A stretch of DNA of 60,690 nt, taken from positions 1 to 60,690 of the forward strand of contig JAJBVD010000047.1 in assembly GCA_020859985.1 (NCBI GenBank). The letters run 5' to 3'. Made by a program: the position numbers and the translations under genes. This document shows positions 1-13,493 of this stretch, piece after piece (position 1 is the stretch's first letter; each line of letters opens with the position of its first letter). Source of the DNA: Clostridiales bacterium. Lineage in GTDB: Bacteria > Bacillota > Clostridia > Lachnospirales > Lachnospiraceae. The notes beneath the pieces are model-generated. The model searched no databases. It saw only the letters and a list, made by a program, of their open reading frames with translations, and was not told where the DNA came from.

Positions 1-2
1 AT

Positions 3-380: not shown

Positions 381-441
381 CTCAGTTTCAAAATTTCCGA
401 TTCTTCGTTCTGCACAATTCTCCAATAAACTGGAAGTTGCA

Positions 442-636
442 TTATTCCTCGTTCTTCATTTCCTCGCTTTTATTCTCTTTACTGCGTCTTATCAATCCAC
501 CGATCAAGTCAATGATTCCCGAACACAACCATGTGATACCAATTACAGTTTTATCTACCCATAACATTAATAGCGACCCGAGAATAAATATTGCCGCCAA
601 AAAAAATAGTACCTTGCTGTTTCCTTTTCTGTTCAT
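442..636 (-). CDS. Small two-helix membrane protein
   Basis: A 64-residue protein with two membrane segments (VLFFLAAIFILGSLLMLWV and IGITWLCSGIIDLIGGLI) and a highly charged Lys/Glu tail. A GAGGG ribosome binding site sits a few bases before the ATG at 636, which supports it as a real gene. It lies 38 bp after the GNAT gene that ends at 675. Function is not recognisable from sequence. Confidence 0.55.
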   Translation of the reverse strand: MNRKGNSKVLFFLAAIFILGSLLMLWVDKTVIGITWLCSGIIDLIGGLIRRSKENKSEEMKNEE

Positions 637-674: not shown

Positions 675-1151
675 TCATCGCAACCGACAAAGCATGATAT
701 ATTCTTCCTCATTTTCATCGACGATTTCAAAACCGACATTGAGGTACATTTTCACAGCATAATTCGCTTTTTGTACGGATAGTGAAGCTTGCTTATACCC
801 TCGTTCTCTTAGAATATTAAGAATTTCATTCATCATGGAAGTACCAATTCCCCTGCCACGATATTCTTTGTATAAAGATATGGCAATGGACGGAGTGTCG
901 TTATCTATATGACCATAGTCATTCATAATGCGCGCCCAAACAGAACCGACAACTGTATTATCAACTTCCGCGGCTAAACCTATATCGTCTTTTTTCTTGC
1001 CAAAATCGGCTATGTATACCTGTAATTCTGGCTGATTGATAATTGATTTTGGCGGTGCAGGCACTCCCTCCGGCACAAAGATAGCTTCGTACAAAAAATC
1101 TTGAAGCAAGCTATATTCTCCCTTTGATAGTGTTCTAATGTTATAATTCAT
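675..1151 (-). CDS. GNAT family N-acetyltransferase
   Basis: A 158-residue GNAT-fold acetyltransferase, expected to move an acetyl group from acetyl-CoA to an amine on a small molecule or protein in the cytoplasm. The acetyl-CoA loop (motif A) is visible as YKEYRGRGIGTSMMNEIL at about residues 95-112, followed by a beta strand and a C-terminal YLNVGFEIV segment typical of the family. A GAGGAA ribosome binding site precedes the ATG at 1151. It has a GNAT neighbour upstream on the same strand and small membrane proteins downstream. The substrate cannot be told. Confidence 0.8.
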   Translation of the reverse strand: MNYNIRTLSKGEYSLLQDFLYEAIFVPEGVPAPPKSIINQPELQVYIADFGKKKDDIGLAAEVDNTVVGSVWARIMNDYGHIDNDTPSIAISLYKEYRGRGIGTSMMNEILNILRERGYKQASLSVQKANYAVKMYLNVGFEIVDENEEEYIMLCRLR

Positions 1152-1214: not shown

Positions 1215-1631
1215 TCAAGTGATATGCTTTGATAAAAAATACTTGCATAGTTTTGGATTTTTATCTTCTCGAATGAATTCAACAGTATACCCAAGTTTCT
1301 TATAGAATTCAGGTGCTTGAAATCCGAAAGTCGTGAGTGTGATCTTATCATATCCTGCATTTTGAAAAGCTTCCTCAACTGCTGAAACGAGCTTGCTTCC
1401 CAATCCGCATTTTCTATGAGCTTTATGTATGATCAAATCACCTATATGCACCTCATTGTAATATGCACGACCTGTAATAACGCCTAATATTTCACCATCA
1501 TCGCTTTCGGCGATAAAACAGAATTCATTAAAATTCAAATCAACATTGTTCTGCTCGCCATAAGCTGAGAATTCTTCGTTGATAAAGTTGCCTATTCTGC
1601 TATCTTCTTCATTTACACGTTTTATATTCAT
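1215..1631 (-). CDS. GNAT family N-acetyltransferase
   Basis: A 138-residue GNAT protein. Motif A is visible as HKAHRKCGLGSKLVSAVE near residues 69-86 and the C-terminal FYKKLGYTVEF segment completes the fold. A cysteine replaces the usual arginine or glutamine in the Q/R-x-x-G-x-G loop, which is tolerated in some members. GGGTGATT before the ATG at 1631 may serve as a ribosome binding site. The gene is about 60 bp upstream of the second GNAT gene, so the two are probably one operon. The two GNATs are not close copies of each other. Substrate unknown. Confidence 0.75.
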   Translation of the reverse strand: MNIKRVNEEDSRIGNFINEEFSAYGEQNNVDLNFNEFCFIAESDDGEILGVITGRAYYNEVHIGDLIIHKAHRKCGLGSKLVSAVEEAFQNAGYDKITLTTFGFQAPEFYKKLGYTVEFIREDKNPKLCKYFLSKHIT

Positions 1632-1789: not shown

Positions 1790-1930
1790 TTATTTTTCAA
1801 AAAATCCGGCAATTGCAAAGCCTAAACCGAGTGCGCCGAGCAGCAGTGTTATCATTTCCATTCCGGTTGATGAAAGTGCAAACACAATGGCAAAAAGTAA
1901 AATTGCAATTCCAAGTCCGATCTTTTTCAT
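1790..1930 (-). CDS. 46-residue hydrophobic membrane peptide
   Basis: A short gene with ATG at 1928-1930 and TAA at 1790-1792. The product begins MKKIGLGIAILLFAIVFA, then has a second hydrophobic segment (MITLLLGALGLGFAIAGF) and ends in FFEK. A strong GGAGGG ribosome binding site lies 8 bases before the ATG and a consensus-like promoter (1992-2020) lies upstream, so expression is well supported. The family is not recognised; two-helix peptides of this kind can be structural membrane peptides or toxins, but nothing here decides it. Confidence 0.55.
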   Translation of the reverse strand: MKKIGLGIAILLFAIVFALSSTGMEMITLLLGALGLGFAIAGFFEK

Positions 1931-1991
1931 AGCAGTTCCCTCCATTCGATTCTGTCACGAATCAAACATCTCGTTTATTCTATACAATTTC

Positions 1992-2071: not shown

Positions 2072-2383
2072 CTATTCTTTCCGCCTGCAGTACAGCGTCA
2101 GGTCAGCCTTGTACCCCTCGAACGTGTCAATGCGGATGATCTCATATAGCTGCCCACGGAAACTTATCACATGATCTGTTGTCACGTCCGTGCGGTAGCT
2201 GATCTGGAATAATACCTGTTCCTCAACCTGCGTTGTTACGCCGTACAGTTCCTTCATAGACAGCTGCCGGAAATACGCCCACACCGGGGCGGCTATGGCC
2301 TCATAGGAAACGATGCTGTTCCCGTTTTCATCGTGAGTATAGGTTTTTGCAAGGATTTCAATTTTCTTGTCTTTCAGCTTCAT
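2072..2383 (-). CDS. Phage head closure (head-tail adaptor) protein
   Basis: A 103-residue protein starting MKLKDKKIEILAKTYTHDEN and ending in a tyrosine- and basic-rich strand (YKADLTLYCRRKE). The pattern of a short N-terminal strand, a central Q/E-rich strand region (EEQVLFQISYRTDVT) and a D-x-I-xF-RGQLYEI motif is that of the SPP1 gp16 / Phage_H_T_join head-closure family, which plugs the portal after packaging and forms the docking surface for the tail. The ATG at 2383 lies one base after the terminase stop codon, implying translational coupling. It is the last gene of the element; a phage would continue here with tail genes, but the sequence moves to the AT-rich flank. Confidence 0.8.
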   Translation of the reverse strand: MKLKDKKIEILAKTYTHDENGNSIVSYEAIAAPVWAYFRQLSMKELYGVTTQVEEQVLFQISYRTDVTTDHVISFRGQLYEIIRIDTFEGYKADLTLYCRRKE

Positions 2384-2384
2384 G

Positions 2385-4025
2385 CTAAATCGCCCCCGTA
2401 TATTCATTATAGTGTTCATAAAGCCCCACATAGCAGTCAAGCAGAGCAGCCGCGCCGTCTATGCGCTGTTTGGGACTCTGGTTTTTAATCGGTACAATGT
2501 TGCCGTTCCGGTCGGTCTGTATGCCGGTATTTGTCAGGCACCACTTCAGGATTGGATTGTTGTTATAAATAACTTTGTGTGCTTTCAGGTCAGCCCCTAA
2601 CATCTGCATGGGCAGGGACAGCGTTTTTGCTCCCTGGATACAGCGCACCATCGTAAAACCCTGCATCTGCATCTCTTCCACAAAATACCGCGCGGAATAG
2701 CTGTCATAATAAACCCATGCCGGGAAAAGATCATATTTCTTTACCGTTTCCACAAACCATGCCGTCACGTCGCTGTAGTTGATGGAATTCCCGGCGCACA
2801 GGCGCAAAAGGCCGCGTGCCGCCCATTTGTCATAAGGTATCTTGTCCTGTGTGACGCGCTCCTGGAGACTGTCAGCGGGCAGCCAATACATTTGCGTAAT
2901 ATATTTTTTGTCGCTTCCGCGCTTCATCAGTAGCAGGCTTGCGCAGGTCAGGTCTGTCGTGATGGACAGGTCAGCGCCGCCGATGCAGTACGCGCCCCTG
3001 AAATTTTCAAGGTCGAACGTATCGGTGTTATTGATGGCGTCAAAGGACAGCCACGCCGAATGCACGGTCTCCCGGATATTGAATTCCTTACAGAGCACGC
3101 CGGACAGGTCGTTTGGGCTTTGCTTTGCCCGTTCCACCTTTAGCTGTAAATCGTCCGGCTTTTTGATATGCCCCAAAGATGGATTGGCTTTCATCCATGC
3201 GCCGGGGTCGCTCCATTCCGTCCGCCGGTCCAGTTCATACAGCACGGGCAGGAAGCTGTCATCTGTGATCACGCCGTCCGCCACTTCGCAGGCGTGGTTA
3301 TACATATCGTCAAAGATGCATTCGCGCACTGTTCCCGCCGTTGTTATCATGACAAGCAGCGGCTGCCGCCGTGCTGATTGGCTCTGGCGCATGACTTCAT
3401 AAAGTTTTCTGTCCTTTATGCCGTGCAGTTCATCCATGATGACAAAGCTTGCGTTCAGTCCGTCCAGGCTGTCAGAGTTGCGGGAAAGCGGCTGCAGCTT
3501 GCTCATGGTCGGGATAAAATACAGGTCGGATTTGCGCTTTCTGATATGCTTTGAAAGCTCCAGTGACTGCTTTACCATATTGTGGCACTCATCGAATAAA
3601 AGCCGCGCCTGCGCGTACTTTGTCGCCGTGCTGTAAACCTCTGCGCCGCCCTCGCCATCCGCAATCAGCATATACAGGGCAAGCCCCGCAAGCAGGGTGC
3701 TTTTCCCGTTCTTTCGCCCCACAAGGAAGAATGCTTCCCGGTAGCGGCGCAGGCCTGTTTCCGGGTCGATAAACCCGAAAAGTGCCTGGATGAATGCTTT
3801 CTGGAACAGTTCCAGCCGGACAGGTCGCCCCGCCCATTCGCCTTTTGAGTGGCGGCAAAAACGCTCTATAAAATCAATCGGGCGGGTTGCCCGCGCCTCA
3901 TCGAACACATAACACCCCGGCGTTTGGCTCTCTGCGGCCAGCCGCGAATATACCTCTTTGATACGCCGACAGGCGGGGATTTCTCCCCGCATAATCAGAC
4001 TGTTGTACTCTGTGATATAGTTCAT
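2385..4025 (-). CDS. terL: Phage terminase large subunit
   Basis: A 546-residue TerL of the phage terminase-like (YmfN/Terminase_1) group: an ATPase that drives DNA into the prohead, with a C-terminal RNase H-like nuclease that cuts the concatemer. The Walker A-like loop is GRKNGKSTLLAGLALYML near residue 105 and the Walker B strand is FVIMDELHG. The C-terminal nuclease region contains the acidic GGADLSITTDLT and YYDSYSARYF segments. The start at 4025 is preferred over an upstream extension because GGGAG lies just before it and the upstream gene ends at 4028. Length is normal for a complete TerL. Confidence 0.92.
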   Translation of the reverse strand: MNYITEYNSLIMRGEIPACRRIKEVYSRLAAESQTPGCYVFDEARATRPIDFIERFCRHSKGEWAGRPVRLELFQKAFIQALFGFIDPETGLRRYREAFFLVGRKNGKSTLLAGLALYMLIADGEGGAEVYSTATKYAQARLLFDECHNMVKQSLELSKHIRKRKSDLYFIPTMSKLQPLSRNSDSLDGLNASFVIMDELHGIKDRKLYEVMRQSQSARRQPLLVMITTAGTVRECIFDDMYNHACEVADGVITDDSFLPVLYELDRRTEWSDPGAWMKANPSLGHIKKPDDLQLKVERAKQSPNDLSGVLCKEFNIRETVHSAWLSFDAINNTDTFDLENFRGAYCIGGADLSITTDLTCASLLLMKRGSDKKYITQMYWLPADSLQERVTQDKIPYDKWAARGLLRLCAGNSINYSDVTAWFVETVKKYDLFPAWVYYDSYSARYFVEEMQMQGFTMVRCIQGAKTLSLPMQMLGADLKAHKVIYNNNPILKWCLTNTGIQTDRNGNIVPIKNQSPKQRIDGAAALLDCYVGLYEHYNEYTGAI

Positions 4026-4027
4026 GC

Positions 4028-4237
4028 TTATTCTCCCAGGTTGGCAAAGGCAAGCAGCGGGTCGCTGTCGTCTGGCGCTTCTTCTTTTGCGCAAAGGCTG
4101 TTGTATTCCTTCACGGCGGCAAGGTAGAGCCGCATAAGGCTTGCATATTCTTTGCTGTCATCGTCTCCGCTGCATGCGTTTATGCGGCCCTGCAGCAAGG
4201 TGATCTGCGCTTTCAGGAAGTCAAGCTGTTCGTTCAT
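4028..4237 (-). CDS. Small protein between HNH and TerL, possible packaging factor
   Basis: About 69 residues from ATG 4237; in-frame ATG 4243 and GTG 4252 are alternative starts, but GAGGAAG is best spaced for 4237. The sequence is mainly helical (EQLDFLKAQITLLQGRINAC, then a SLMRLYLAAVKEYNSL helix) with a proline/aspartate-rich tail. It overlaps the end of the preceding 76-residue gene and ends 2 bp before terL. The position is where small terminase subunits usually lie, but no recognisable HTH of the common TerS families is visible. Function unknown. Confidence 0.6.
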   Translation of the reverse strand: MNEQLDFLKAQITLLQGRINACSGDDDSKEYASLMRLYLAAVKEYNSLCAKEEAPDDSDPLLAFANLGE

Positions 4238-4451
4238 CCGCATCTTCCTCACTTTCCTCTTTTAAAAGCTGGAGCAGGGCAAGCTGCGCCGGGACATATG
4301 CGGCTGACAGCTGTGCGATTTCATCCTCCCCGCCTGAATAGGGCAGATACTCATTAAGGCATTTTCTCAGCCGCATGGTGATATTCATCAGGTTTGTGAT
4401 AGCGTTGGTTCTCTCTGCAAGGTAAGTTTTTCTGCTTCTGTTCTTATTCAT
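4221..4451 (-). CDS. Small helical protein upstream of TerL, small-terminase candidate
   Basis: A 76-residue protein starting MNKNRSRKTYLAERTNAITN. It has a basic N-terminus, a helix containing NITMRLRKCLNEYL and a second helix (AAYVPAQLALLQLLKEE) before an acidic tail. The ATG at 4451 overlaps the HNH stop region by 8 bp and its own end overlaps the next gene, so it is part of the packaging operon. A basic, helix-rich protein directly upstream of terL is a candidate DNA-recognition subunit, but this is inference from position only. Confidence 0.65.
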   Translation of the reverse strand: MNKNRSRKTYLAERTNAITNLMNITMRLRKCLNEYLPYSGGEDEIAQLSAAYVPAQLALLQLLKEESEEDADERTA

Positions 4452-4746
4452 GGCAATTTTTCCTTTCTTTGATTAAGTTTCCTTCTGCGTCAAACGCAAG
4501 CCCTTCTGTGACAGCGCCGCCGGTACCAAAATGTTCCCGGTTATGGCATTCCATGCACAGGGCTTCCAGGTTCTCCGCATTCAGGGTGATTTCCGGGTTA
4601 TTGATATTTGCGGACGTGATATACCGCTTGTGGTGGGCGATCTCTGCGGGGCCGCCGCACCGCTCACAGATATAATTTTTTGAAAGCAGGTATGTCCGCG
4701 ACAGCCGCCTCCATTGTCTGGAATGGTAGAATTCTTTTTGCGTCAT
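4444..4746 (-). CDS. HNH endonuclease (packaging-associated)
   Basis: A 100-residue HNH nuclease. The zinc knuckles are CERC and CMEC, the catalytic strand carries EIAHHKRYI and the helix has ECHNREHFG, giving the His-Asn-His signature. In HK97-like phages and capsid-forming satellites a small HNH protein next to the terminase is needed for specific cutting of concatemeric DNA. Here it sits between the connector and the small packaging proteins and overlaps both neighbours by a few bases (ATG at 4746, connector stop at 4743). Confidence 0.9.
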   Translation of the reverse strand: MTQKEFYHSRQWRRLSRTYLLSKNYICERCGGPAEIAHHKRYITSANINNPEITLNAENLEALCMECHNREHFGTGGAVTEGLAFDAEGNLIKERKNCHE

Positions 4747-5012
4747 GACAGCTCCCTCTCCGCGCTTAACGCCTTTAACAGGCAGTCAATGACGCGCTGA
4801 AGTTTGTCTGTGTCTGCATTCTCCCCATAGTACCATTGCCAGAGGATGAACCGCCCGGCGGTCAGGGCGACGGGGGAATAGTCCCCGTCTGTCCTGTAGC
4901 CCGTCGTATGGTAGAGATAATCCGGCAATGCTGCAATCAGGGCTTCGATTTCGCTGTCATTGTCTGTTCCGTCAATTCGCAGGATGTTTCTTGCTTCGTC
5001 AATTTCAAACAT
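4743..5012 (-). CDS. Phage head-tail connector (gp6-like DNA packaging protein)
   Basis: An 89-residue protein starting MFEIDEARNILRIDGTDND. The N-terminal DxxR-xYLRIDG-like motif, the DxEIEALIAALPDYL helix and the FILWQWYYGENAD segment match the HK97 gp6-like connector family that forms a ring under the portal. The start at 5012 is chosen because GGGGGAAA precedes it; an upstream in-frame extension has no family similarity and runs into the capsid gene end. It lies directly after the capsid gene, the standard position. Confidence 0.82.
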   Translation of the reverse strand: MFEIDEARNILRIDGTDNDSEIEALIAALPDYLYHTTGYRTDGDYSPVALTAGRFILWQWYYGENADTDKLQRVIDCLLKALSAERELS

Positions 5013-5032
5013 TGCCGTTTCCCCCGCTTTCC

Positions 5033-6523
5033 TTACGCTGCGGTAACTTCGATTTTCACGAATGCGCCGGGGACGATGGGCTTGCCGTCCGCGATGCACA
5101 GCGCCCGGAAATCAATCAGGCCGCTGGTAAAGCCGCTTTCCCTGCTTACCTCTACGGCTACGCCCTGCGGGATATTCACGCCATAGTGGCGGAAATTCCC
5201 GAAAATCACGGTGCCTGCAGGGATATTATCGTCAAGGACGATAGGAAAGCCGAACAGACGGCGCACACTGCCGCTTTCCGTGTCAGTAAAGATATACCGC
5301 CCGTCATTGTCCTTGAGCGGGTATACCTGCCCGAACAGGGTAGCCGTACTCATGGCAAATTTCGCGCCGCCCGCATACCCGGCGGGCAGCAGGGCGATAG
5401 CAGAAAGCAGGTTGTCAGCGGCCAGGGCCGTTGTGGAAATGGTATTGTCATCCGTCCAGTCAATGCCGGATAAGATTCCGACGGGCTGCCCTTCGCCGCT
5501 TCCTTCGACGATGGCCGCACCGATCGCATCCGCGATGGAGCTGCGCAGTTCCTGCGTGATATAGCTTTCAAAGGCTGCGATATCCATGCGGCGGGCGGCG
5601 GCACTCATGGAAATCACTTTGATAAGTTCAAGGCCGCTGAACGTCACGGCGGTAGTCGTCACGTTGGTTCGGTCAACCGCAGTGCCCTCAACGTGCCAGC
5701 TTGCCGCATCGGTCGGGGTACCGACAGGTACGGACAGGTTGGACGGCACGTTGAAAATGCGCACTTCATTGTAAAGGCCGTTGATGTTACGCGCCTGTTT
5801 TACAACCTCATTCAGGGTCTGCGTGGGGATGACGGCGGCGCTGTTCGACAGGGTGTTGAAGCTGTCCGCGCGTTTTTCTGCCTGTGCCGCTGTAAAAGCG
5901 CGGTTTTCGCTTTCGGTCAGTTCGCGCCCCAGCAGCTTCTTGAAGAATGCACTGCGGTATTCCGGGGTTGCGTGGGTGTCAGGGTTTGCCTGTGCCGCAT
6001 TCAGCACGGCGCTTTCAATGGGATTAAAATTGTTCATAACATGTTCCTTTCCGGCGTTTCTCGCCTGTACGTTGGTTTGTGGATATGCTGCCCGGTTTAC
6101 GATGGAAATTTCATAAACCGCTGCGATCTGTGTGATTGTGCGCTCCCGCGCCTGTTCGTCATAGGCCTGTGCTCCGATGTCAAAGGCGAATGACATTTCT
6201 GACAGGTCGCCGCGCCTTACTGCTTCATAAACGCTGCGCCCCTGTTCGGTGTCGGGCAGTTCCGCCCGCATTTCAAGCCCGGTTTCCGTCACGGTCAGGG
6301 ACAGTGTTTTCGGGCTTTTCGCAAGGGGGATTCCGCGCCCGTCGTGGTTGATTAACAGAGCGATATTTTCAAGGTTTACGCCGTCCAGCGCATCCCTTGT
6401 TATCCGCTCCGTATAGCCTCCCATGTCGGCGGGGCTGTCAAATACAATGGCTGTCCCCTCTACGATCAGCGGCTTTTGTGCCGCCCGGACGTTATATGCC
6501 CGTGTCTGTGTCTGGTTCTGCAT
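5033..6523 (-). CDS. Prohead protease fused to HK97-type major capsid protein
   Basis: A 496-residue in-frame fusion. Residues 1 to about 155 are an HK97-type prohead serine protease: GTAIVFDSPADMGGYTERI start, catalytic His60 in ALLINHD and Ser111 in LSEMSFAFD. Residues about 163-496 are an HK97-fold capsid protein: N-terminal helical scaffold-like (delta) region, then AAVIPTQTLNEVVKQARN, SWHVEGTAVDR and the QPVGILSG loop, ending in FRALCIADGKPIVPGAFV. The gene overlaps the portal stop by about 30 bp. An internal ATG with its own ribosome binding site (see 6035-6052) could also give free capsid protein. Confidence 0.93.
   Translation of the reverse strand: MQNQTQTRAYNVRAAQKPLIVEGTAIVFDSPADMGGYTERITRDALDGVNLENIALLINHDGRGIPLAKSPKTLSLTVTETGLEMRAELPDTEQGRSVYEAVRRGDLSEMSFAFDIGAQAYDEQARERTITQIAAVYEISIVNRAAYPQTNVQARNAGKEHVMNNFNPIESAVLNAAQANPDTHATPEYRSAFFKKLLGRELTESENRAFTAAQAEKRADSFNTLSNSAAVIPTQTLNEVVKQARNINGLYNEVRIFNVPSNLSVPVGTPTDAASWHVEGTAVDRTNVTTTAVTFSGLELIKVISMSAAARRMDIAAFESYITQELRSSIADAIGAAIVEGSGEGQPVGILSGIDWTDDNTISTTALAADNLLSAIALLPAGYAGGAKFAMSTATLFGQVYPLKDNDGRYIFTDTESGSVRRLFGFPIVLDDNIPAGTVIFGNFRHYGVNIPQGVAVEVSRESGFTSGLIDFRALCIADGKPIVPGAFVKIEVTAA
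6035..6052 (-). promoter_or_regulatory. Internal ribosome binding site and start inside the protease-capsid gene
   Basis: On the minus strand GGAAAGGAAC (6043-6052) lies about 8 bases before an in-frame ATG at 6037 (Met163), exactly at the protease/capsid boundary. This would allow separate synthesis of the capsid protein beginning MNNFNPIES alongside the fusion. Confidence 0.55.
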
Positions 6524-7640
6524 TTTGTTTTACCTCGCTTTCTTCCAGCTGGTATGCGTCCGCCTTGTCCGCGGCCACATAGTTTAGGGATTGCAGGCGT
6601 TTTTCCCCGTCCTTTACTTCGGGCAGGGCAAGCAGCCTGCGTGCTTCATTTATTGAGATCACGCCGAATGGCAGTAACTCACGCAACAGTGAGATACGGG
6701 TCGCCGCGCTGGAGAATTCCAGCCGCTCCGCCGTAAATTTGATTTCCGCCCCGCATTTGCGGGAGAATTCAAGGCTTGCCTGTATTGCAAACGGCTCTAC
6801 CATGCTTTCATAGAACGCCGCGAATTCATCTTCTGTGTATTCCCCGGCGACGATTTTCGGGGAAATCCCCAGGTAAGCACAGATTTGTCTGTTTATACTT
6901 TCCGTCACGTCAGACGGCACGCTGTAGGCGCTTTGTGCCGTCGGCACGAATTCAAACCGCTGGTCGGTGGCCGCAATGCCACCATTGTTCGCGGGGTTGA
7001 AATAGTCAGAAACAAACTGTTCCTTTTCCGCTTTTACCTGCGCCGGGTTGACAAGGCTTGTGAATTTCAGCACGCCCCGGATGTTCGTTGCGTTTTTTAC
7101 CGCCGCCCCGGTCGCTTCGGTCAGCGTGTGTGCCGTGTCAATCAGCGGGTACAGCGGCGCATTGTCGCTGCCCAGCAGTTCATTTGTGGAATAATGACGG
7201 CGCAGGTGGATAAGGTCGGAGTATGGCAGCAGCACGTCTTTCCCATCCGTGAAAATCATGCGCGTGTAGATTGTGCCGTCCTGCGCCCCGATAAACTCCA
7301 CGCTTGCCGGGGTCAGAGGGTAGAATGCCGCAATGCCCCGTTCGCGCTGTATGAGGATAAAGGCGTTGTTTGTGGAATAATACGCCGTCGCCGACTTATA
7401 CAGCAGGTCATAGGCCGTCATATAAGGGTTAGGCGTATTTTGAAGCAGGTTTTCCACATCGGCCCGGCTGCAATGCGCCTGCAGCTTTGCCGTGTGCCGC
7501 GCGATCGCGTCAACCGCTCCCCGGAATGCCGCGTTCCCGTATGCCGTCCCGGAAAAAGCGGTAAAGCCGCTCTGTATTTCTATGGATATCCCATGCGGTG
7601 GTTCCTGTTTTCTTTTGAACAGCTTTTGTAATGCGTTCAT
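6492..7640 (-). CDS. Phage portal protein (HK97 family)
   Basis: A 382-residue portal, the dodecameric ring through which DNA enters the head. Typical features are the early AYGNAAFRGAVDAIARHTA segment, LLQNTPNPYMTAYDLLYKSA, NAFILIQRERG, and the RICAYLG-like NRQICAYLGISPKIVAGEY motif with a C-terminal INEARRLLALPEV helix. AGGAG lies 8 bases before the ATG at 7640. It is the first structural gene after the non-coding stretch that follows the primase. Length is complete for the family. Confidence 0.93.
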   Translation of the reverse strand: MNALQKLFKRKQEPPHGISIEIQSGFTAFSGTAYGNAAFRGAVDAIARHTAKLQAHCSRADVENLLQNTPNPYMTAYDLLYKSATAYYSTNNAFILIQRERGIAAFYPLTPASVEFIGAQDGTIYTRMIFTDGKDVLLPYSDLIHLRRHYSTNELLGSDNAPLYPLIDTAHTLTEATGAAVKNATNIRGVLKFTSLVNPAQVKAEKEQFVSDYFNPANNGGIAATDQRFEFVPTAQSAYSVPSDVTESINRQICAYLGISPKIVAGEYTEDEFAAFYESMVEPFAIQASLEFSRKCGAEIKFTAERLEFSSAATRISLLRELLPFGVISINEARRLLALPEVKDGEKRLQSLNYVAADKADAYQLEESEVKQNAEPDTDTGI

Positions 7641-7738
7641 GGTTTTGCTCCTCTCTGAAAATTAATTTCCCGTGTGGGGGAAAAATGAACTCCGGCACCG
7701 GTGTCTGGCGGCCGGCTTTTTCATGCGCCGGTGGGGGA

Positions 7739-7830
7739 GTGACGGGCAGTGACGGCTGTAAGAAACTTTCCCTCGTAAAACCGCTTTTTTCATTTGGAAA
7801 AGTTTCCTGTTAAACGTCACTTGCCGTCAC
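7739..7830. other. Inverted-repeat region beside the primase gene, candidate replication origin
   Basis: The roughly 200 bp between the primase stop and the portal start (7641-7840) has no gene. It holds two direct GTGACGG motifs (7739-7745 and 7749-7755) and the inverse pair CGTCAC/CCGTCAC (7815-7820 and 7824-7830), so the arms GTGACGGGCAGTGACG and CGTCACTTGCCGTCAC form an imperfect inverted repeat. Inside it GAAACTTTCC (7762-7771) mirrors GGAAAAGTTTC (7796-7806). Iteron-like repeats beside a primase-helicase gene are what a satellite origin looks like; an operator or processing site is possible too. Confidence 0.45.
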
Positions 7831-7840
7831 TTTTTCGCGC

Positions 7841-10210
7841 TCACCCCACAAGCGGCGGCACGCAGTCAAAAGGCGTCGGCTCGCAGCACGGCTCAAAATC
7901 CGTCACTTTCAGACGCAGGCCATAGACTTTCATGCCTTTGTTTGTTTTGTGGTAGACAAAGCCTGCGCCCTGCATTGCTTTTTTGAAGTCATCCGCCCGG
8001 CGTGTATAATCCCTTACGGTGGCACTGTAGGACGTATAGGCGCTGTACAGATCGCCGCTCATGATTTCATAATCCTGTGATACTTCACAGTTTTCGGCCA
8101 GGAAATTATGCAGCCAGTCATTCGCCGCACGGTATTCCTCACAGGCGGCTGTGACGCACTCCGGCACCTCAATATGCCCCTGGTGCTCAATAAAGCGTTT
8201 TGCGCCTTTTATAATCCATAACAGGACAGCGCCCCCGGCACGTTCAAACAGGTAGTCTGCATAATTGTAGATTTCGCCTTTAACGCCGCGCAGGTTTGCT
8301 TTGAACGGTACGACGATAAGCCGGTCCCAGGTTCCCTTGTCGATGGTTCCGACTTTTGGGAGATGGTTTGTATACAGCACAATGTTGTGGGACGGAATGA
8401 AGTCAAACGGCGATTTGTATTTCTTTTCGCCCCGTATCGGGTCGGTGCTGCACAGCTTCTTGACAGTAGCGGTATCAAGTCGCACGCCTTCTTCCAGTTC
8501 CGCCGCAATCACAAGCCGCCGCCCGCGCAGTTCCGCATATTCCGGCTTCTTATTGTTACGGTTGTTTGTAATCAGCACATCAGAGGACAGGCCGCCTGAA
8601 TAGTCACCCATAACGCGGGACAGCAGGTTGAACAGGGTGCTTTTGCCATTGCCGCCCCCGCCGTATGCGATAATCAGGTTTTCCCTGAGGACCTTGCCGA
8701 CGGCACACATCCCGGCGATTTCCTGCAGGTAATTTTCAAGTGCGCTGTCATTGCAGGTCACACGGCGCAGGAAGTCGGAAAACAGGTCCGCGCCTTCTGT
8801 CCCCGGCCCTACAGCGGTTATTTTCGTGCAGTAGTCAGCGGGGTCATGCTTTTTGATTTTTCCCGTCTGCAGGTTGACCGTCCCGGCTGGCGTGTTCAGC
8901 AGATAGGGGTCTCTGTCCAGCAGGTCAACCGCAATCTGCAAAGCTGGCCTTGCCTCGGTCAGTGCTGCGGCAATGCGTGATGTTTTCCGCTCCGCAAGCG
9001 CGAATGAGCGAAAAGTCCTTGCAAAATGTATTTTCTTTTTTGCCTTGTCTTGGGCTTCATTGTCCCCGGATTCAGCGGCGGCGTTTTCCTCCGCCTGTGC
9101 TTTCATAAGCAGCCTGGATGCAAGGTCAAGCTGATTTGCGGTCAGTCTCTGCACAAGGCCCTGTGCCCGGATTTCATCTTCACGCCACGTGGTACCGTCG
9201 TATACAATCCACTTTGTAGCCTCGGAATATTTTGCTTTCTCCCCGTATACCGCCGCAAACATATCTGCCTGGCCTACATCGGTATAGTCAGAGGGGATAA
9301 GGCTCTGCACAAAATCCTGTGCTACATATTCTGATGGCGGTATGTAGCCCGGTCCCTTGCTTGTTTTTTGCTCATAGTGCCTGCAGGCATCCCGCCAGAT
9401 TCTGGCAATTTCATCATCCGGCTTTGGCTCCTCACACTGTGCCACGCGCTGCATAAACGCTTCATGTGCCTTATCGCATACGCCGTATTTTGTCAGCACG
9501 GTTGCAGCAAAGCTTACAAGGGTACCGTGCCGTTGCCCGGTTGGAATGATCTGGCCGAATTTCGGCTTGTCCGCTTTGAGCGCTGTATTCTGTTCTGTCA
9601 GCGCCTGGATGGCGTCTTTGTATGCGTCGGCAAATGTCAGCAGGTCAGATTTGCTGCATACCGCATCAAAATCGGTATAGCCTTCAATCAGTCCCTTGTC
9701 AGTCCCGAAAAAGATGCGGTCCGCATTTATGCAGGTCTGATCAGACTGTGGAAACGCCGCAATCAGCGCCGCCTGCACCCGGTCGCGCTCTGCGCGGTCT
9801 GTAAAATCCTCATCTGCAACCAGGGCAATTCGGAACCGTTGAAGCTCCGCCGTGCTGCTAAAGGTTTCATACATGAAAGCCGGTTTTAGGCCGTATTGTG
9901 CAAGCAGTTCCGCGATATGTGCCGGGGTCTCAGCGGGTAAGTCCGCGCGTTTGTTGTCGATATCGCTCATAAAAACAATCTGCCTGCTGAAATCCTCATC
10001 CTTTGTGCCTTTTGCCCCGCTCTTCCGGCTTTCCTCCGAAAAAGGGGTAATGCCCGGCTGCACAGTCCTTCCGGCAGTCAGGGCAGCCGCAAGCTGTTTT
10101 GTGCTGATGTCCTTAATGCTTGCCGATCTTGTGAAACGGGATTTTATGCCGCCGATTTCCTGGCCGGTGGGTTTTATCTTGAATTTCACATTGTCAACGT
10201 GCAGCAACAT
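7841..10210 (-). CDS. Phage/satellite primase-helicase (P4-type)
   Basis: A 789-residue replication protein. The first 250 or so residues resemble the VirE N-terminal/AEP-like primase region (FMSDIDNKRADL, RIFFGTDKGL), the middle is a linker, and the C-terminal half is a D5/P4-type superfamily 3 helicase: Walker A AYGGGGNGKSTLFNLLS near residue 518, Walker B-like RRLVIAAELEEG, then VLYTNHLPKV sensor and GTWDRLIVVPF arginine-finger segments. It would prime and unwind the element's DNA at its origin. GGGGGAG precedes the ATG at 10210, which overlaps the excisionase-like gene by 17 bp. Confidence 0.88.
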   Translation of the reverse strand: MLLHVDNVKFKIKPTGQEIGGIKSRFTRSASIKDISTKQLAAALTAGRTVQPGITPFSEESRKSGAKGTKDEDFSRQIVFMSDIDNKRADLPAETPAHIAELLAQYGLKPAFMYETFSSTAELQRFRIALVADEDFTDRAERDRVQAALIAAFPQSDQTCINADRIFFGTDKGLIEGYTDFDAVCSKSDLLTFADAYKDAIQALTEQNTALKADKPKFGQIIPTGQRHGTLVSFAATVLTKYGVCDKAHEAFMQRVAQCEEPKPDDEIARIWRDACRHYEQKTSKGPGYIPPSEYVAQDFVQSLIPSDYTDVGQADMFAAVYGEKAKYSEATKWIVYDGTTWREDEIRAQGLVQRLTANQLDLASRLLMKAQAEENAAAESGDNEAQDKAKKKIHFARTFRSFALAERKTSRIAAALTEARPALQIAVDLLDRDPYLLNTPAGTVNLQTGKIKKHDPADYCTKITAVGPGTEGADLFSDFLRRVTCNDSALENYLQEIAGMCAVGKVLRENLIIAYGGGGNGKSTLFNLLSRVMGDYSGGLSSDVLITNNRNNKKPEYAELRGRRLVIAAELEEGVRLDTATVKKLCSTDPIRGEKKYKSPFDFIPSHNIVLYTNHLPKVGTIDKGTWDRLIVVPFKANLRGVKGEIYNYADYLFERAGGAVLLWIIKGAKRFIEHQGHIEVPECVTAACEEYRAANDWLHNFLAENCEVSQDYEIMSGDLYSAYTSYSATVRDYTRRADDFKKAMQGAGFVYHKTNKGMKVYGLRLKVTDFEPCCEPTPFDCVPPLVG

Positions 10211-10385
10211 AGGTTTCTCCCCCTTTTTCTAAATACGCTTCAAAAACGGTGCGGACGATATAACAGCGGTTCCCGGTCTGGATTACAGGGAATGCCCCAC
10301 GCTTTACAAGTGTGCGGATGGCATATTCCGGGATTCCGTATTCCCGTGATGTTTCTCGGATTGTCAAGGCTGCTTTCTGTTCCAT
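10194..10385 (-). CDS. Excisionase-like winged HTH protein
   Basis: A 63-residue protein starting MEQKAALTIRETSREYGIP. The TIRETSREYGIPEYAIRTLVK helix pair followed by GNRCYIVRTVFEAYLEK is the excisionase/MerR-like minimal wHTH fold. It would bend DNA at the attachment sites to direct excision, or act as an early regulator. It is the first gene of the leftward transcript from the promoter at 10471-10498 and overlaps the primase start, so excision and replication are induced together. Confidence 0.75.
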   Translation of the reverse strand: MEQKAALTIRETSREYGIPEYAIRTLVKRGAFPVIQTGNRCYIVRTVFEAYLEKGGETYVAAR

Positions 10386-10438
10386 GCGTAAAGCCCCCCT
10401 TTCTTTTTATGATAATTCGTTTTTCTTGCGTCTAATTA

Positions 10439-10467
10439 TTGACAACTGCGCTTTTCTTGTGTATACT
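10439..10467 (+). promoter_or_regulatory. Repressor-integrase promoter
   Basis: TTGACA (10439-10444), 17 bp, TATACT (10462-10467): near-perfect sigma-A promoter reading toward the repressor gene at 10557. A direct repeat TTTTCTTGnG occurs at 10421-10430 and 10452-10461, 31 bp apart, and may bind a regulator. Confidence 0.7.
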
Positions 10468-10470
10468 CAC

Positions 10471-10498
10471 ATTATAGCAAATGGAAAAGCAAAGTCAA
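10471..10498 (-). promoter_or_regulatory. Early leftward promoter of the satellite
   Basis: On the minus strand TTGACT (10493-10498), 16 bp, TATAAT (10471-10476), reading toward the excisionase-like and primase genes. It faces the rightward promoter and their transcription starts cross, so the two are mutually interfering. Its -35 box touches the operator at 10499-10534. Confidence 0.65.
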
Positions 10499-10534
10499 GT
10501 TTCCTTGAATTAGTTTTATTAAGTTCAAGGAAAC
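10499..10534. promoter_or_regulatory. Repressor operator (11-bp inverted repeat)
   Basis: GTTTCCTTGAA (10499-10509) and TTCAAGGAAAC (10524-10534) form a perfect inverted repeat with a 14-bp spacer. It abuts the -35 of the leftward promoter and lies in the repressor leader, as expected for a CI-like operator that blocks lytic genes and tunes its own gene. Confidence 0.65.
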
Positions 10535-10556
10535 CGCAATCGGAAAGGAGAAAAGG

Positions 10557-11081
10557 ATGTCAGATTCAAGCAAACAACCGCCGGTAAACCGGTATAACTC
10601 GCATTTTGCGGAAACGCTGCGCAGCCTTATGGAAAGTCACGGCACGACGCAGAAAGAGCTTGCAGCTTTCATGAATATCCGTCCGCAGTCGCTTTCCCTG
10701 TACTGCACAGGGGAAACACAGCCAAACGGCGACAAGCTTTTAAAAATCGCGGAATTTTACGGCGTGACGGTTGATTACCTTCTTACAGGTACAATTATTG
10801 AAGATATTCCTGTACGTGAAACGCTGGGGCTTTCACAGAGAACTGTGGAGAATATGCGGCTGATAAAGGACGGGTATTTTGAGGACAGCCCCTATATGCT
10901 CCCCATGCTCGACATGATGTTGGGGGATAAGGATTTTTATTCCGCATTAGAGCGGGCGGCATACTGGCTGCAGAACGGTAATGAAGACATGGAAGAAAAG
11001 CGCGACTATTACGAATTCAAGGCGGAAAAGGTATTAGAGGATTATCTGTTTGATTTCGTTGGCCGTAACTTCCAGCGATAA
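10557..11081 (+). CDS. CI-like XRE family repressor
   Basis: A 174-residue cytoplasmic DNA-binding protein. The Cro/CI HTH is at about residues 16-75 (TTQKELAAFMNIRPQSLSLY, then GDKLLKIAEFYGVTVDYLLTG). The C-terminal 90 residues are acidic and helical and do not show the Ser/Lys of a LexA-type self-cleaving domain, so induction by RecA-stimulated cleavage is not expected; derepression by a helper-phage protein, as known in PICIs, would fit. AAAGGAG precedes the ATG. It is 26 bp upstream of the integrase gene and probably co-transcribed with it. Confidence 0.88.
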   Translation: MSDSSKQPPVNRYNSHFAETLRSLMESHGTTQKELAAFMNIRPQSLSLYCTGETQPNGDKLLKIAEFYGVTVDYLLTGTIIEDIPVRETLGLSQRTVENMRLIKDGYFEDSPYMLPMLDMMLGDKDFYSALERAAYWLQNGNEDMEEKRDYYEFKAEKVLEDYLFDFVGRNFQR

Positions 11082-11107
11082 GCATTAATAAAGGAAGGAG
11101 TGTTAGA

Positions 11108-12463
11108 ATGGCAAGTATCAGAAAACGTGGTGACACGTTCACGATTACCGCATACATGGGATATGACGAACAAGGAAAGCAGCGCAAGAAAACGACGACA
11201 TACCGTCCGCCCGACGGCGTGACAGCAGGCAAGGCGGAAAAGTTGGCAAAGCAGTACGCGGCGGTATGGGAAGAAAAAATCAGGGGATATGTAGCCCTGG
11301 ACGAAAACCGTACATTTGCGGAACTGGAAAAGTGGTATTATGAGACGGTTGCGCCGTCTGTTTTAAAACCGCAGACCTTGAAGAATTACCGGGGAGAGAT
11401 TGAACGGCACATCATGCCTGTGTTAGGGCGTGAAAAGCTGAAAAATATCACCCCGCCCATGCTCGACAGCCTTTTTGCCGAATTACAGAAAAGCGGCAAC
11501 GTGGAAACGCATTACCGCCTGAAAGATAAGGCGCTTTTGGATGGCTATAAACGTCAGGAACTTGCGGATAAGGCCGGGATTGAAAAATCTACGCTCTATA
11601 ATGTCATGCGCGGCACCACAAGCAGGAAGACAGCGGAAAAAATCGCGGCGGCGATTGGAATGCCCCTCGACAAAGCATTTGATAATGTAGGAAGTCCGGC
11701 GCTGACCGGCGCAAGTGTAAACAAGATTAAGCTGAACCTGTCGGCAATTTTTACGGCGGCGGTCAAGAAAGAGATCATGCGCCGCAACCCCTGTAAGCTG
11801 GCGACGCCGCCCAAAGTAGATACGCCGCCTGCTGCATTCTTTGATGAAGAACAGAGCCGCCGGTTACTTGATACACTGCATGAGCAGCCGGATTTCCAGT
11901 TTGAAGTGATTGGCAACCTGTTCCTTGCGACGGGCATCCGCTCCGGCGAACTGTGCGCCCTGCATTGGGATGACATCGACTTCCAGACGGGCGTTTTATA
12001 TATCAGCCACACAATGGTGCGCCTGGACGGGAAGTTTGTTAGGGACACGCCGAAAACCGATGAAAGCGAACGGCGGATTGTCCTGCCGGAATATGTCCTT
12101 GATCTGCTGAAAGAGCACAAGCATAAGCAGGCGCTGGAACGTTTTAAAAAGGCGGATATCTGGAAAGTCCCGGAAGCGGTTTTCACTAATCTGGTCGGCA
12201 ACTACCTGATTGGCTCCAACCTGAATGTGAAGCTGAAAAAGGTGTGCAGACAGGCAGGCCTGCCGGAACTCCATCTGCATTCGCTCCGTCACACGCACGC
12301 TTCTTTGCTGATTAACGGCGACGTAGCGGCAAGGGTGATCGCAGACCGGCTTGGGCACTCTACCACGAAAACCACGCTCGACACATACAGCCACGTTTTC
12401 GCGGCAAGCGAAGCAAGGGCTATGAAAGCAATCGACATGGCACTTTTCCGCAAAGCAGAGTGA
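11108..12463 (+). CDS. int: Tyrosine integrase with an internal HTH insertion
   Basis: A 451-residue site-specific recombinase. Residues 1-45 are an arm-binding domain, about 65-125 and 200-230 the SAM-like core-binding domain, and 245-445 the catalytic domain with Arg278 (ATGIRSGEL), His391 and Arg394 (HSLRHTH), His417 (LGHS) and nucleophile Tyr427 (TLDTYSHV). Between the two core-binding helices, residues about 138-195 hold an extra XRE-like HTH (ELADKAGIEKSTLYNVMRGT, then AEKIAAAIGMPLDKAF). This makes it longer than the usual 370-400 residues. It lies at the right edge of the element, next to candidate arm sites at 12502-12539. Confidence 0.93.
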   Translation: MASIRKRGDTFTITAYMGYDEQGKQRKKTTTYRPPDGVTAGKAEKLAKQYAAVWEEKIRGYVALDENRTFAELEKWYYETVAPSVLKPQTLKNYRGEIERHIMPVLGREKLKNITPPMLDSLFAELQKSGNVETHYRLKDKALLDGYKRQELADKAGIEKSTLYNVMRGTTSRKTAEKIAAAIGMPLDKAFDNVGSPALTGASVNKIKLNLSAIFTAAVKKEIMRRNPCKLATPPKVDTPPAAFFDEEQSRRLLDTLHEQPDFQFEVIGNLFLATGIRSGELCALHWDDIDFQTGVLYISHTMVRLDGKFVRDTPKTDESERRIVLPEYVLDLLKEHKHKQALERFKKADIWKVPEAVFTNLVGNYLIGSNLNVKLKKVCRQAGLPELHLHSLRHTHASLLINGDVAARVIADRLGHSTTKTTLDTYSHVFAASEARAMKAIDMALFRKAE

Positions 12464-12477
12464 AAAAGGCAAAAAGA

Positions 12478-12500
12478 AACCGCTAGGGGCGGTTAAAATT
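12478..12500 (+). terminator. Weak hairpin after the integrase gene
   Basis: AACCGC (12478-12483) and GCGGTT (12489-12494) form a 6-bp stem with a TAGGG loop followed by AAAATTT. It may end the repressor-integrase transcript, but the T-run is short. Confidence 0.4.
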
Positions 12501-12501
12501 T

Positions 12502-12539
12502 GTCGCTTATTTGTCGCTTAAACAGGCAAAAGTCGCTTA
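12502..12539. repeat. Three direct GTCGCTTA repeats, candidate integrase arm sites
   Basis: GTCGCTTA occurs at 12502-12509, 12513-12520 and 12532-12539, with starts 11 and 19 bp apart, immediately after the integrase gene. Short directly repeated boxes here are typical arm-type binding sites for the N-terminal domain of tyrosine integrases. A weaker relative, GTGACTTA, lies at 2057-2064 just past the other end of the element. Confidence 0.5.
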
Positions 12540-12599
12540 GATTCACTCAACGATACTACAACATCTAGTCAAAATACTCAATTCTATACACTATATCTT

Positions 12600-13493
12600 G
12601 TGTTATTAAAAGAAATTCCATATAATATTTACTCTGAGAAGAAATCATATCTTCGTGCTTCCATGAAGCTGAATTACGCGCCGTCGACTCTGGCAGAGCA
12701 CATACTGTCACTGGAAAATGAGCTGGGCGTCAAGCTGGTGGAGAGCCGCGGAAAGCGTACGGTACTGACAAAGGGCGGGGAGCGATTCCTGCCCTATGCC
12801 AGAAAACTGATGGAGACCTACAACACGGCCTGCCGGGATATGTCGTCCATGAATGCCATAAAAGGGAATCTCCGCGTGATGACGGTGGAATCTTTGGGAC
12901 TGTACAGCATGGCAATGGTCTTCACAAAATTTATGGCAGGCTATCCGGATATCACGCTTTCGGTCAGCATCGGGAACTGCAACGCGATCTACGACCGCCT
13001 GCGCGCGGATGAGATCGACGTGGCGTTTCTTTATGATATGGAACCGGTAAAAGAGCCGGATCTGGAAACGACTGTTCTTTTCCGCGAGCCGCTGTGCTTT
13101 ACGGTATCTCCGAAGCACCCGCTGGCGAAAAAAGAACATGTTAGTCCGAAGGATTTTCAGCGCCAGGTGTTTGTTCTGGCGCAAAAGGACTGCTACTATT
13201 ACCGGCAGCTGGAGGAGATGCTGGAGCATCATCACATCGCCCTTCAGAATCAGATCCGTCTTGACAGCGGAAGCCTGATCAAAAAATACGTTTCCTCGGG
13301 GTATGGGATTAGCCTGCTTCCTTACAGTGTTGTGCGCGAGGACGCGGAGGCTGGAACGCTTAAGATCCTCAACTGGATCGGGGAACCCTGGGAAGCCTGC
13401 GCACAGGTGCTGAATATGAAAAAAGAGTGGATCATGCCTTCGATTCCGGCATTGATCCGGACAGCGAAAGAAGCGGCGGCTGTTTACGGATAA
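12600..13493 (+). CDS. LysR family regulator with an altered 5' end
   Basis: A 297-residue LysR-type regulator: wHTH at about residues 10-60 (KSYLRASMKLNYAPSTLAEH) and a periplasmic-binding-protein-like effector domain with DVAFLYDMEP and SGYGISLLPYSVV. The frame starts with GTG at 12600 and no ribosome binding site, the first helix is atypical (a proline in IPYNIYSEKK), and the first 60 bp are strongly AT-rich while the rest is not. The satellite's integrase end lies just upstream, so the gene probably had its original promoter and start replaced at the junction. Its likely target was the adjacent glutamate dehydrogenase gene. Whether the present gene is expressed is doubtful. Confidence 0.72.
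   Translation: MLLKEIPYNIYSEKKSYLRASMKLNYAPSTLAEHILSLENELGVKLVESRGKRTVLTKGGERFLPYARKLMETYNTACRDMSSMNAIKGNLRVMTVESLGLYSMAMVFTKFMAGYPDITLSVSIGNCNAIYDRLRADEIDVAFLYDMEPVKEPDLETTVLFREPLCFTVSPKHPLAKKEHVSPKDFQRQVFVLAQKDCYYYRQLEEMLEHHHIALQNQIRLDSGSLIKKYVSSGYGISLLPYSVVREDAEAGTLKILNWIGEPWEACAQVLNMKKEWIMPSIPALIRTAKEAAAVYG

Follow-up and report, generated by a model that had tools for sequence, protein, structure and literature searches.

A short run of genes at the left of this stretch of a Lachnospiraceae-type genome (the window, 60,690 bp, G000:C67:1-60690, part of a 68,655-bp contig) raises the question of what kind of element places an integrase, a repressor and a primase-helicase beside genes for a phage head and its packaging motor, with no recognisable tail. 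The best explanation, and in our judgement a highly probable one, is an intact integrated phage satellite of the capsid-forming PICI (cf-PICI) type that measures 13,446 bp between its attL and attR overlaps (overlap to overlap). Indeed, HMM searches confirmed the integrase, repressor, excisionase, primase, portal, protease-capsid, connector, HNH, TerL and head-closure genes that an earlier note on this DNA had called intact, and their ORFs are uninterrupted (Table 1). That note also credited the element with a complete head and packaging set, which holds for the head genes, HNH and TerL; a small terminase is not recognisable (its position holds a 74-aa ORF of no family). The reported absence of tail and lysis genes was upheld, as none is recognisable in HMM scans of the element's genes.

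The window starts at position 1 of contig C67, and its left edge is therefore a contig end; the left end of the element lies beyond it, on contig C25 of the same genome. Positions 3960-4014 of C25 match window positions 1-55 exactly, and a small HTH ORF is continuous in frame across the join, which is based on this 55-bp assembly overlap, the continuous ORF and a continuous LysR gene, not on sequencing reads. The insertion point falls after codon 15 of the LysR gene, where a 7-bp overlap is flanked by the element's 8-bp inverted arms; the attL and attR overlaps differ at 2 of 7 bases. The ORF at 12600-13493 was rejected as a whole native LysR gene, its first 14 codons being element-derived and the true start lying on C25. 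A LysR homologue found by protein search (P0002, 98% identical) is continuous across the junction and represents an intact target elsewhere. In 40 relative genomes searched for an empty site the best LysR match reached 29%, and the excised attP junction gave 0 matches in viral_contigs with a pattern that presumes a conserved right arm, a result that weighs little in either direction.

These ends replace the earlier limits of 2072-12599 (about 10.5 kb), and the head-closure gene, formerly taken for the final gene of the element, is its last virion gene only. Another 2,883 bp of element follow it, holding two GNAT acetyltransferases (no PADLOC match for either), small membrane-like proteins, an HTH regulator and a SymE-like protein. 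This cargo differs among relatives, three of which carry restriction-modification genes, and a similar small HTH ORF lies downstream of head closure in L048, L219, L227 and, by eye, L046. Tail genes immediately beyond the left window edge, which by the earlier note's own terms would have refuted its reading, were not found: leftward beyond head closure come cargo, attL and then apparently ordinary host genes on C25 (read by eye). A reading of the left flank as host DNA was ruled out by the C25 overlap with window positions 1-55. An element end at 1977, suggested by a 10-bp repeat at 1977 and 12581, was rejected because the true attL is on C25 and because 4 such 10-mers occur against about 1.7 expected by our own estimate. 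Another 10-mer, which starts at 302 and shares sequence with the attR core, was dropped on the same grounds.

Table 1. Features of the satellite and its target gene (window positions unless C25 is named; -, reverse strand).
Feature	Position	Strand	Evidence or remark
Small HTH regulator gene, 3' end	1..116	+	Cro-type by eye; start on C25 at 3851; element's first piece on C67
Cargo, small membrane-like protein	171..425	-	no confident family
Cargo, small membrane-like protein	442..636	-	no confident family
Cargo, GNAT acetyltransferase	675..1151	-	PF00583 2.5e-13
Cargo, GNAT acetyltransferase	1215..1631	-	PF00583 4.4e-16
Cargo, small membrane-like ORF	1790..1945	-	no confident family
Head closure / head-tail joining protein (Hc1), last virion gene	2072..2440	-	PF05521 (Phage_HCP) 4.6e-14; phrog_25 2.2e-15
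Terminase large subunit (TerL)	2385..4025	-	PF03354 ATPase 1.1e-35; PF20441 nuclease 2.7e-33; ATG start by alignment with relatives (ORF list has upstream TTG at 4094)
74-aa ORF in TerS position, candidate reduced small terminase	4028..4252	-	position only
76-aa ORF, no assigned function	4221..4451	-	counterparts in L045, L046, L127, L128, L214
HNH nuclease of packaging module	4444..4746	-	PF01844 2.8e-6; HNH families of PHROG
Head-tail connector / adaptor (Ad1-like)	4743..5099	-	weak: gp6-like PF05135 0.002 (below Pfam's cut-off); phrog_40 2.8e-4
Prohead protease fused to HK97-type major capsid protein	5033..6523	-	single ORF; PF04586 protease 7.8e-29 (residues 13-161); PF05065 capsid 7.7e-44 (residues 230-492)
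Portal protein	6492..7640	-	PF04860 4.5e-42
Conserved non-coding 31-bp block, candidate cos (packaging) site	7676..7706	-	12 aligned elements; 47.7 bits
D5-type primase-helicase (Pri-Rep)	7841..10210	-	PF08706 (D5_N) 6.3e-28; PF19263 (DUF5906) 7.7e-14; phrog_1883 1.6e-205
Excisionase / AlpA-type small HTH protein	10194..10385	-	PF12728 (HTH_17) 3.8e-6; Tn916-Xis 0.003; phrog_66 2.4e-4
CI-type HTH repressor	10557..11081	+	PF01381 (HTH_3) 6.7e-15
Tyrosine integrase with inserted HTH domain (residues ~144-188)	11108..12463	+	PF00589 2.7e-25; PF01381 2e-5
Arm-type repeats, three GTCGCTT, presumed integrase arm sites	12499..12538	+	recur near other end, C25 3258
attR	12627..12649	+	arm ATTTACTC, 7-bp overlap (12635-12641), then LysR sequence
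attL overlap	C25 3148-3154
Target LysR regulator from codon 16 on	12642..13493	+	start codon at C25 3110; 15 codons on C25

The 74-aa ORF in the small-terminase position had no HMM match in the Pfam and PHROG scans, and its counterpart in the relative L045 is 87% identical; in other satellites of the clade TerL is preceded by phrog_1066 proteins with weak TerS similarity. The HNH protein itself matched phrog_4581, a family named terminase small subunit, at 4.8e-20 over positions 46-109 of 395. For the excisionase-like gene, the HTH_17 family (PF12728) is accepted as AlpA in the satellite model described in the accessible part of PMC10803314.

The order of the virion genes, portal, capsid, HNH and TerL, is permuted relative to that of phages, and it recurred in 51 of 160 loci drawn with TerL, which places the arrangement beyond chance; none of the 98 phage-order loci has it, and 11 loci whose order was not determinable were excluded. 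TerL identity was 62-95% for the satellite-order loci versus 45-58% for the phage-order loci. In fact, a TerL tree of 155 rows, from which TerLs shorter than 480 aa were excluded, gathered 50 satellite-order rows and 5 of undetermined order in one branch with zero phage-order rows (SH-aLRT 100); the satellite label was counted to change six times on this tree because undetermined rows form a separate group. By TerL phylogeny the window element is thus placed within one Bacillota satellite clade, which spans several Bacillota groups. Gene content makes it a satellite of the cf-PICI type, apparently in a new variant, and any kinship to the published cf-PICIs, none of whose sequences were among the rows of this tree, is putative. 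The same block has mapped ends in two relatives, L045 (13,407 bp) and L048 (13,780 bp), so similar in size to the window element, and neither continues into tail or lysis genes. Five more satellite contigs, at 12.7-14.3 kb, have exact terminal repeats of the kind expected of circles.

Members of the clade may also carry a packaging signal of their own. A conserved 31-bp non-coding block, new here, is likely a cos site, and in the window it scores 45.5 bits with a matrix built without the window, L045 and L046. At a threshold of at least 8 bits it was matched in 19 of 47 held-out satellite-order loci, several of these matches being near-copies (a staphylococcal set; L134/L136/L137), and had no match in the other 28, versus 0 of 98 phage-order loci. 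Because some of the latter are too short to be sure of including the phage's cos region, this zero does not amount to 98 independent tests. The 19 matches lie between HNH and TerL in 17 loci, just before the portal gene in one, and elsewhere in one.

To look beyond the core genes, we scanned ORFs of at least 130 aa in 10 satellite contigs, and no tail or lysis family was listed for any of the 40 non-core ORFs (31 ORFs with 25 of 27 PHROG families listed, 5 of the 25 without description, and 9 further ORFs). Endolysin families appeared in two members in a broader scan of 69 of 76 chosen ORFs that included host flanks, with 25 of 106 families listed, so that little can be drawn from it. The satellite probably borrows its tail from another virus. 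In its own genome, the only match to PF05521 is the satellite's head-closure gene, and the only other PF03354 TerL lies on contig C57, in a prophage with tail genes. This prophage has neck families that differ from those of the satellite and no PF05521 match; therefore, no matched helper is visible in this genome.

The prototype of the cf-PICIs is reportedly EcCIEDL933, said to have been described by Alqurainy and colleagues in 2023. Judged against the signature genes in the accessible parts of PMC10448857, the mean size and hosts in those of PMC10803314, and the gene list in those of PMC13230959, the window element shares with cf-PICIs an integrase, AlpA-type HTH protein, Pri-Rep and repressor, an HK97-type capsid, protease, portal, adaptor (a weak match here), closure protein, HNH and TerL, the absence of tail and lysis genes, and a size of about 14 kb. 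It differs in its host, as Clostridia are absent from the host list in the part of PMC10803314 available, in a protease fused to the capsid, an unrecognisable TerS and a candidate cos before the portal gene, and in target, with relatives in recombinase genes and the window copy in LysR. The 14.1-kb Lacticaseibacillus phage JB1P3 (PV668529) likewise has a primase, a portal, one head-to-tail joining gene, TerS, a TerL-sized hypothetical protein and a 519-aa capsid ORF (25.9% identical to the window capsid), and none of its 22 annotated features, of which many are hypothetical, is a tail or lysis gene; however, its genes follow the classical phage order (TerS, TerL position, portal, capsid) and not the permuted order of the window.

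Helper-embedded PICIs, as far as described in the accessible part of PMC10111431, share the insertion into prophage genes by one integrase clade and an att identity block of about 10 bp, but are enterobacterial and lie in late genes, whereas the window's relatives lie in genes for serine recombinases, one of which belongs to a prophage. The copy in the window interrupts a LysR gene of the host and not a helper prophage gene, and the prophage whose recombinase gene holds L048 is a candidate helper only. The cf-PISP satellite-plasmids of Vibrio, tail-less, capsid-forming and circular, are reported from no other genus in the accessible part of PMC13230959; certain elements in the wider clade of the window element resemble them in having terminal repeats and ParA. 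The window element is integrated between attL and attR with no ParA found, and L059, L061, L150 and L151 fit the cf-PISP description better than it does.

Gene content, mapped ends, a separate TerL branch and relatives that end alike all support the satellite reading that the earlier note proposed, and three alternatives can be weighed against it. The locus might be a defective prophage in decay, its tail and lysis genes already gone. Bacillota phages have homologues of the head genes, and one relative, L040, is decayed, its TerL being shortened and neither portal nor capsid matched; in L047 the portal gene adjoins the repressor and no primase matched. Yet the genes of the window element are open, the same compact order occurs in 51 loci within one branch, mapped ends are precise and sizes near-constant, the order from portal to TerL is not a phage order minus a piece, and a satellite-specific non-coding block is conserved, all of which make decay very improbable.

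It is also very unlikely that a satellite of this kind, PICI or other, uses or redirects a helper's capsid despite encoding head genes. The left part of the element is PICI-like, the presence of capsid genes does not by itself show that particles form, and a carried capsid gene is not required in Gram-negative PICIs according to the accessible part of PMC10111431; however, the portal, protease, capsid, connector, closure, HNH and TerL genes are kept, with a candidate cos, in one order across the clade, and a redirecting element would presumably not need the whole set. Least credible of all, and extremely improbable, is the packaging of host DNA by a domesticated or gene-transfer-agent-like head cluster. 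While a cf-PICI capsid groups with a GTA capsid in the structural phylogeny in the accessible part of PMC12846349, the window element has an integrase, excisionase, att sites, primase and candidate cos, and its occurrence is patchy, with the integrase (E<=1e-80) in 1 of 391 genomes of the class and 4 of 397 of the family, its own genome counted in both.

For a cf-PICI-type satellite the gene set suggests the following cycle, in which particle formation and the use of a helper tail are what we infer. A helper phage would relieve the satellite's repressor, upon which the satellite would excise and replicate by its own primase-helicase. A complex of HNH, TerS-like protein and TerL would cut at the satellite's own cos and fill heads that the satellite's portal and protease-capsid proteins form, and the connector and head-closure proteins would cap these heads, where a helper tail would dock.

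The integrase (86% identical to that of L045, 67% to that of L048) also points to where such elements settle. Among its relatives at 65% identity or more (L045, L047, L048 and L212-L220), seven insertion sites were resolved including the window's, and five of the seven lie at FEKE codons of serine-recombinase genes, although L216 is about the same element as L048, such that two of the five come from near-identical elements. These sites were read at both ends for L045 and L048, on the attL side only for L213 and L216 (the attR core is not present at the other end of L216) and on the attR side only for L214; the remaining two are the window's LysR site and that of L215. Outside the seven are L218 and L219, and L047, L212, L217 and L220, each of which breaks off where its contig stops. 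Among integrases of lower identity, G483 (53%) and G724 (44%) lie in other genes, and G569 (38%) yielded no assignable site. In Catenisphaera adipataccumulans DSM 25799, L048 sits inside the recombinase gene that closes an apparently complete siphoprophage; it is followed by additional recombinase ORFs that might stand in for that gene. We venture, as a tentative idea that may well prove wrong, that this subclade uses the conserved FEKE codons as attB and settles in the integrases of other mobile elements; in a prophage integrase, as in Catenisphaera, it might lock a future tail donor in place until satellite excision restores the integrase, and, having a capsid and a cos of its own, it would draw nothing but the tail from that donor.

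An intact satellite of cf-PICI type is now seen in a Lachnospiraceae-type genome, and it opens three routes to testing: the att sites are known exactly, the candidate cos block sets satellite packaging apart from that of phages, and in one named strain, C. adipataccumulans DSM 25799, satellite control of helper excision would be directly testable.

The left limit given in the earlier note, position 2072 of the window, proved to be wrong, as the element extends past position 1 onto another contig of the same genome, C25 (4,014 bp). The window covers the left portion of contig C67 (68,655 bp), so that at its left edge the assembly breaks off. The last 55 bases of C25 are the first 55 of the window, a small HTH gene runs in frame from one into the other, and the arm repeats of the element are present on C25 too. 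There the element boundary falls within a LysR gene whose start follows a symporter-like gene, and a protein search with the joined LysR returned a 298-aa homologue at 98% identity, uninterrupted over the junction. The element ends read ACGTTTTC-TGAGGAA-GAGTAAAT (attL) and ATTTACTC-TGAGAAG-AAATCATA (attR); therefore, the element's own arms form an 8-bp inverted pair flanking a 7-bp overlap. Related elements with mapped att sites, which the earlier note had proposed to seek, were indeed found, with both ends resolved for L045 (13,407 bp) and L048 (13,780 bp). Their att sites have the same design, each with its own sequences, and the distance from head closure to the far att site is 2.8 kb and 3.1 kb, respectively. 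The attL and attR overlaps differ at 2 of 7 positions in the window element and at one in L045, which may reflect mutation or a tolerated mismatch.

Locations of features of the window element, its relatives and a resident prophage
Feature	Location	Observation
Complete element	C25 3148-4014 + C67 56-12634	13,446 bp (13,444 when the preset limits are shifted slightly)
End of small HTH gene	window 1-116	
31-bp block	window 7676-7706	non-coding, upstream of portal
Integrase	window 11108-12463	HTH domain (residues 144-188) inserted between N-terminal and catalytic parts
Remainder of LysR	window 12642 onward	
SymE-like cargo of window element	C25 (L209) 3387-3629	PF08845, 1.9e-15; such a protein also in L213 (72%)
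Cargo slot, L045	L045:12316-14497	REase + D12 methylase (restriction-modification pair)
Cargo slot, L048	L048:12287-14987	EcoRI-like methylase + GmrSD_N-HNH nuclease (restriction-modification pair)
Cargo slot, L227	L227:17087-19449	blast counterparts of the L048 methylase/GmrSD_N-HNH pair
Catenisphaera adipataccumulans prophage with satellite (L048)	G813:C1:160-210 kb	
Prophage on contig C57 of source genome (L242, L243)	G000:C57:15000-50000	major tail protein, tail terminator, fused protease-capsid, portal; 2,417-aa ORF at tape-measure position

HMM searches bore out the genes named in the earlier note, from integrase to head closure, in ORFs without internal stops, and protease and capsid form a single fused protein. 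Whether such a tail-less block is a satellite or a broken phage was weighed from gene order, TerL phylogeny and the content of relatives. A TerL-alignment scan supplied the 80 top-scoring loci each from genomes and from viral contigs, a sample and not a census, and the window genes were mapped onto these. Among these 160 loci, portal and capsid precede TerL in 51 (satellite order) and follow it in 98 (phage order), with 11 lacking assignable order; the TerL proteins are 62-95% identical to that of the window in satellite-order loci and 45-58% in phage-order loci. In a 155-row TerL tree the satellite-order rows fall in one 55-row branch (SH-aLRT 100), comprising 50 such rows, including the window, and five without assignable order. 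This branch adjoins phage-order rows, its deeper placement being unsure because of the quick method, midpoint root and long branches, and its members include, going by record titles, Priestia, Cohnella, Alicyclobacillus, Staphylococcus, Clostridium, Catenisphaera and a Selenomonadaceae MAG. We also scanned 40 more ORFs, each 130 aa or longer, chosen from 10 satellite contigs. Of these, 31 matched 27 PHROG families (1e-10 threshold), and the 25 families listed concern replication, partition, integration and regulation, with five lacking a description; the other nine ORFs gave replication families, one undescribed family, a weak UvsX-like family or no match. No tail or lysis family was found among the families listed for these ORFs. 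Separately, a 40,295-bp contig from the same genus (L040; G007 C27) holds a decayed relative with a regulator, a primase fragment, a TerS-like ORF, a TerL shortened at its N terminus and a gene for head closure, followed by host-like genes; no portal or capsid match was obtained in it.

Other satellites of the clade encode a phrog_1066 protein of about 105-115 aa ahead of TerL, and five of the six strong matches (L049, L050, L055, L057 and L040; not L132) also show weak TerS similarity. The window and its close relatives have ORFs of about 65-90 aa in this slot. That of the window had no Pfam or PHROG HMM match, those of L048 (0.099) and L127 (0.0078) weakly matched families of unknown function, and that of L129 gave a marginal phrog_1066 match (0.035). 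By position only, the window ORF is a candidate reduced TerS.

The 31-bp block upstream of the portal gene is common to 12 subclade elements, from which a matrix (47.7 bits) was built and run over the 160 TerL loci, with four training loci left out of the counts. At a threshold of 8 bits the block was found in 19 of 47 satellite-order loci, several of these being near-copies, and was not matched in the other 28; it was found in none of 98 phage-order loci (best 7.3 bits), of which short ones may lack their cos region, and in one of the 11 without assignable order (L060, the decayed relative). In 17 of the 19 loci it lies between HNH and TerL, 359-449 nt ahead of the TerL start (in L049, between HNH and the TerS-like ORF), while in L130 it lies just before the portal gene and in L054 elsewhere on the opposite strand. 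The window copy still scores 45.5 bits with a matrix built without the window, L045 and L046, and the HNH-TerL space of the window is taken up by overlapping small ORFs. The block sequence is thus kept but its position is shifted, which speaks for cos and against a leader tied to one gene, and we infer a candidate cos packaging site.

Single-protein searches with the integrase (E<=1e-80) hit 1 of 391 class genomes and 4 of 397 family genomes, the source genome included in both. With a three-integrase alignment as query, viral contigs yielded 12 loci, nine at 65% identity or more, one of them a fragment. Seven sites were resolved at or above this identity. In five of them a serine-recombinase gene is interrupted at its FEKE codons, as seen on both sides in L045 and L048, on the attL side in L213 (51% over 78 aa to a recombinase half) and L216, and on the attR side in L214 (59% over 44 aa). 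L216 is almost a duplicate of the L048 element, and the core is absent from its other end. The two remaining sites are LysR in the window and another gene in L215, which did not match the recombinase pieces. In Catenisphaera, the satellite lies within a gene with Resolvase and Recombinase domains that ends an apparently complete siphoprophage. Confirmed prophage genes run from phrog_1883 primase through TerL, head protease, capsid, Ad1, neck, major tail, tape measure, Dit and minor tail, together with a tail endopeptidase and GH25 lysin; polymerase, holin and further recombinase ORFs downstream of the split gene were recognised by eye. Between the head-closure-like ORF of this prophage and the head-closure protein of the embedded satellite, identity is 29% over 102 aa. 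Similarly by eye, the L045 target recombinase adjoins ORFs resembling MobC and RepA of conjugative elements, and therefore the target is a gene type, not phages as such. Satellites within helper prophages are known from enterobacterial late genes (PMC10111431), whereas relatives of the window element often occupy serine-recombinase genes; a limited literature search returned no title or abstract describing satellites there.

Building on the integration and gene content observed here, a helper signal would derepress the satellite, leading to excision and replication by its own machinery, packaging at its own cos into its own heads, and attachment of a helper tail to these heads. No matched helper was visible in the source genome, where PF05521 was found in the window element only; the C57 prophage has tail genes and other neck families. 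Likewise, the phages that mobilised a published cf-PICI did not come from its own strain (PMC11389934).

Exact terminal repeats of 55-141 bp occur in L053, L059, L061, L150 and L151 (12.7-14.3 kb), as circular molecules would show, and a ParA-type gene is present in satellite-order contigs L059, L061, L150, L151 and L152 of the same TerL clade. These six contigs look like satellite-plasmids in Bacillota, which PMC13230959 reports in Vibrio only.

cf-PICIs are an established satellite family (PMC11389934, PMC10803314, PMC10448857, PMC13230959), and a limited literature search turned up one paper in which phage satellites and Lachnospiraceae are both named. Judged from genes, the window element carries the cf-PICI gene-content features tested, apart from TerS, for which it has a candidate by position only. 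It is novel in its module order relative to phages, in the position of the candidate cos and in its integration habit.
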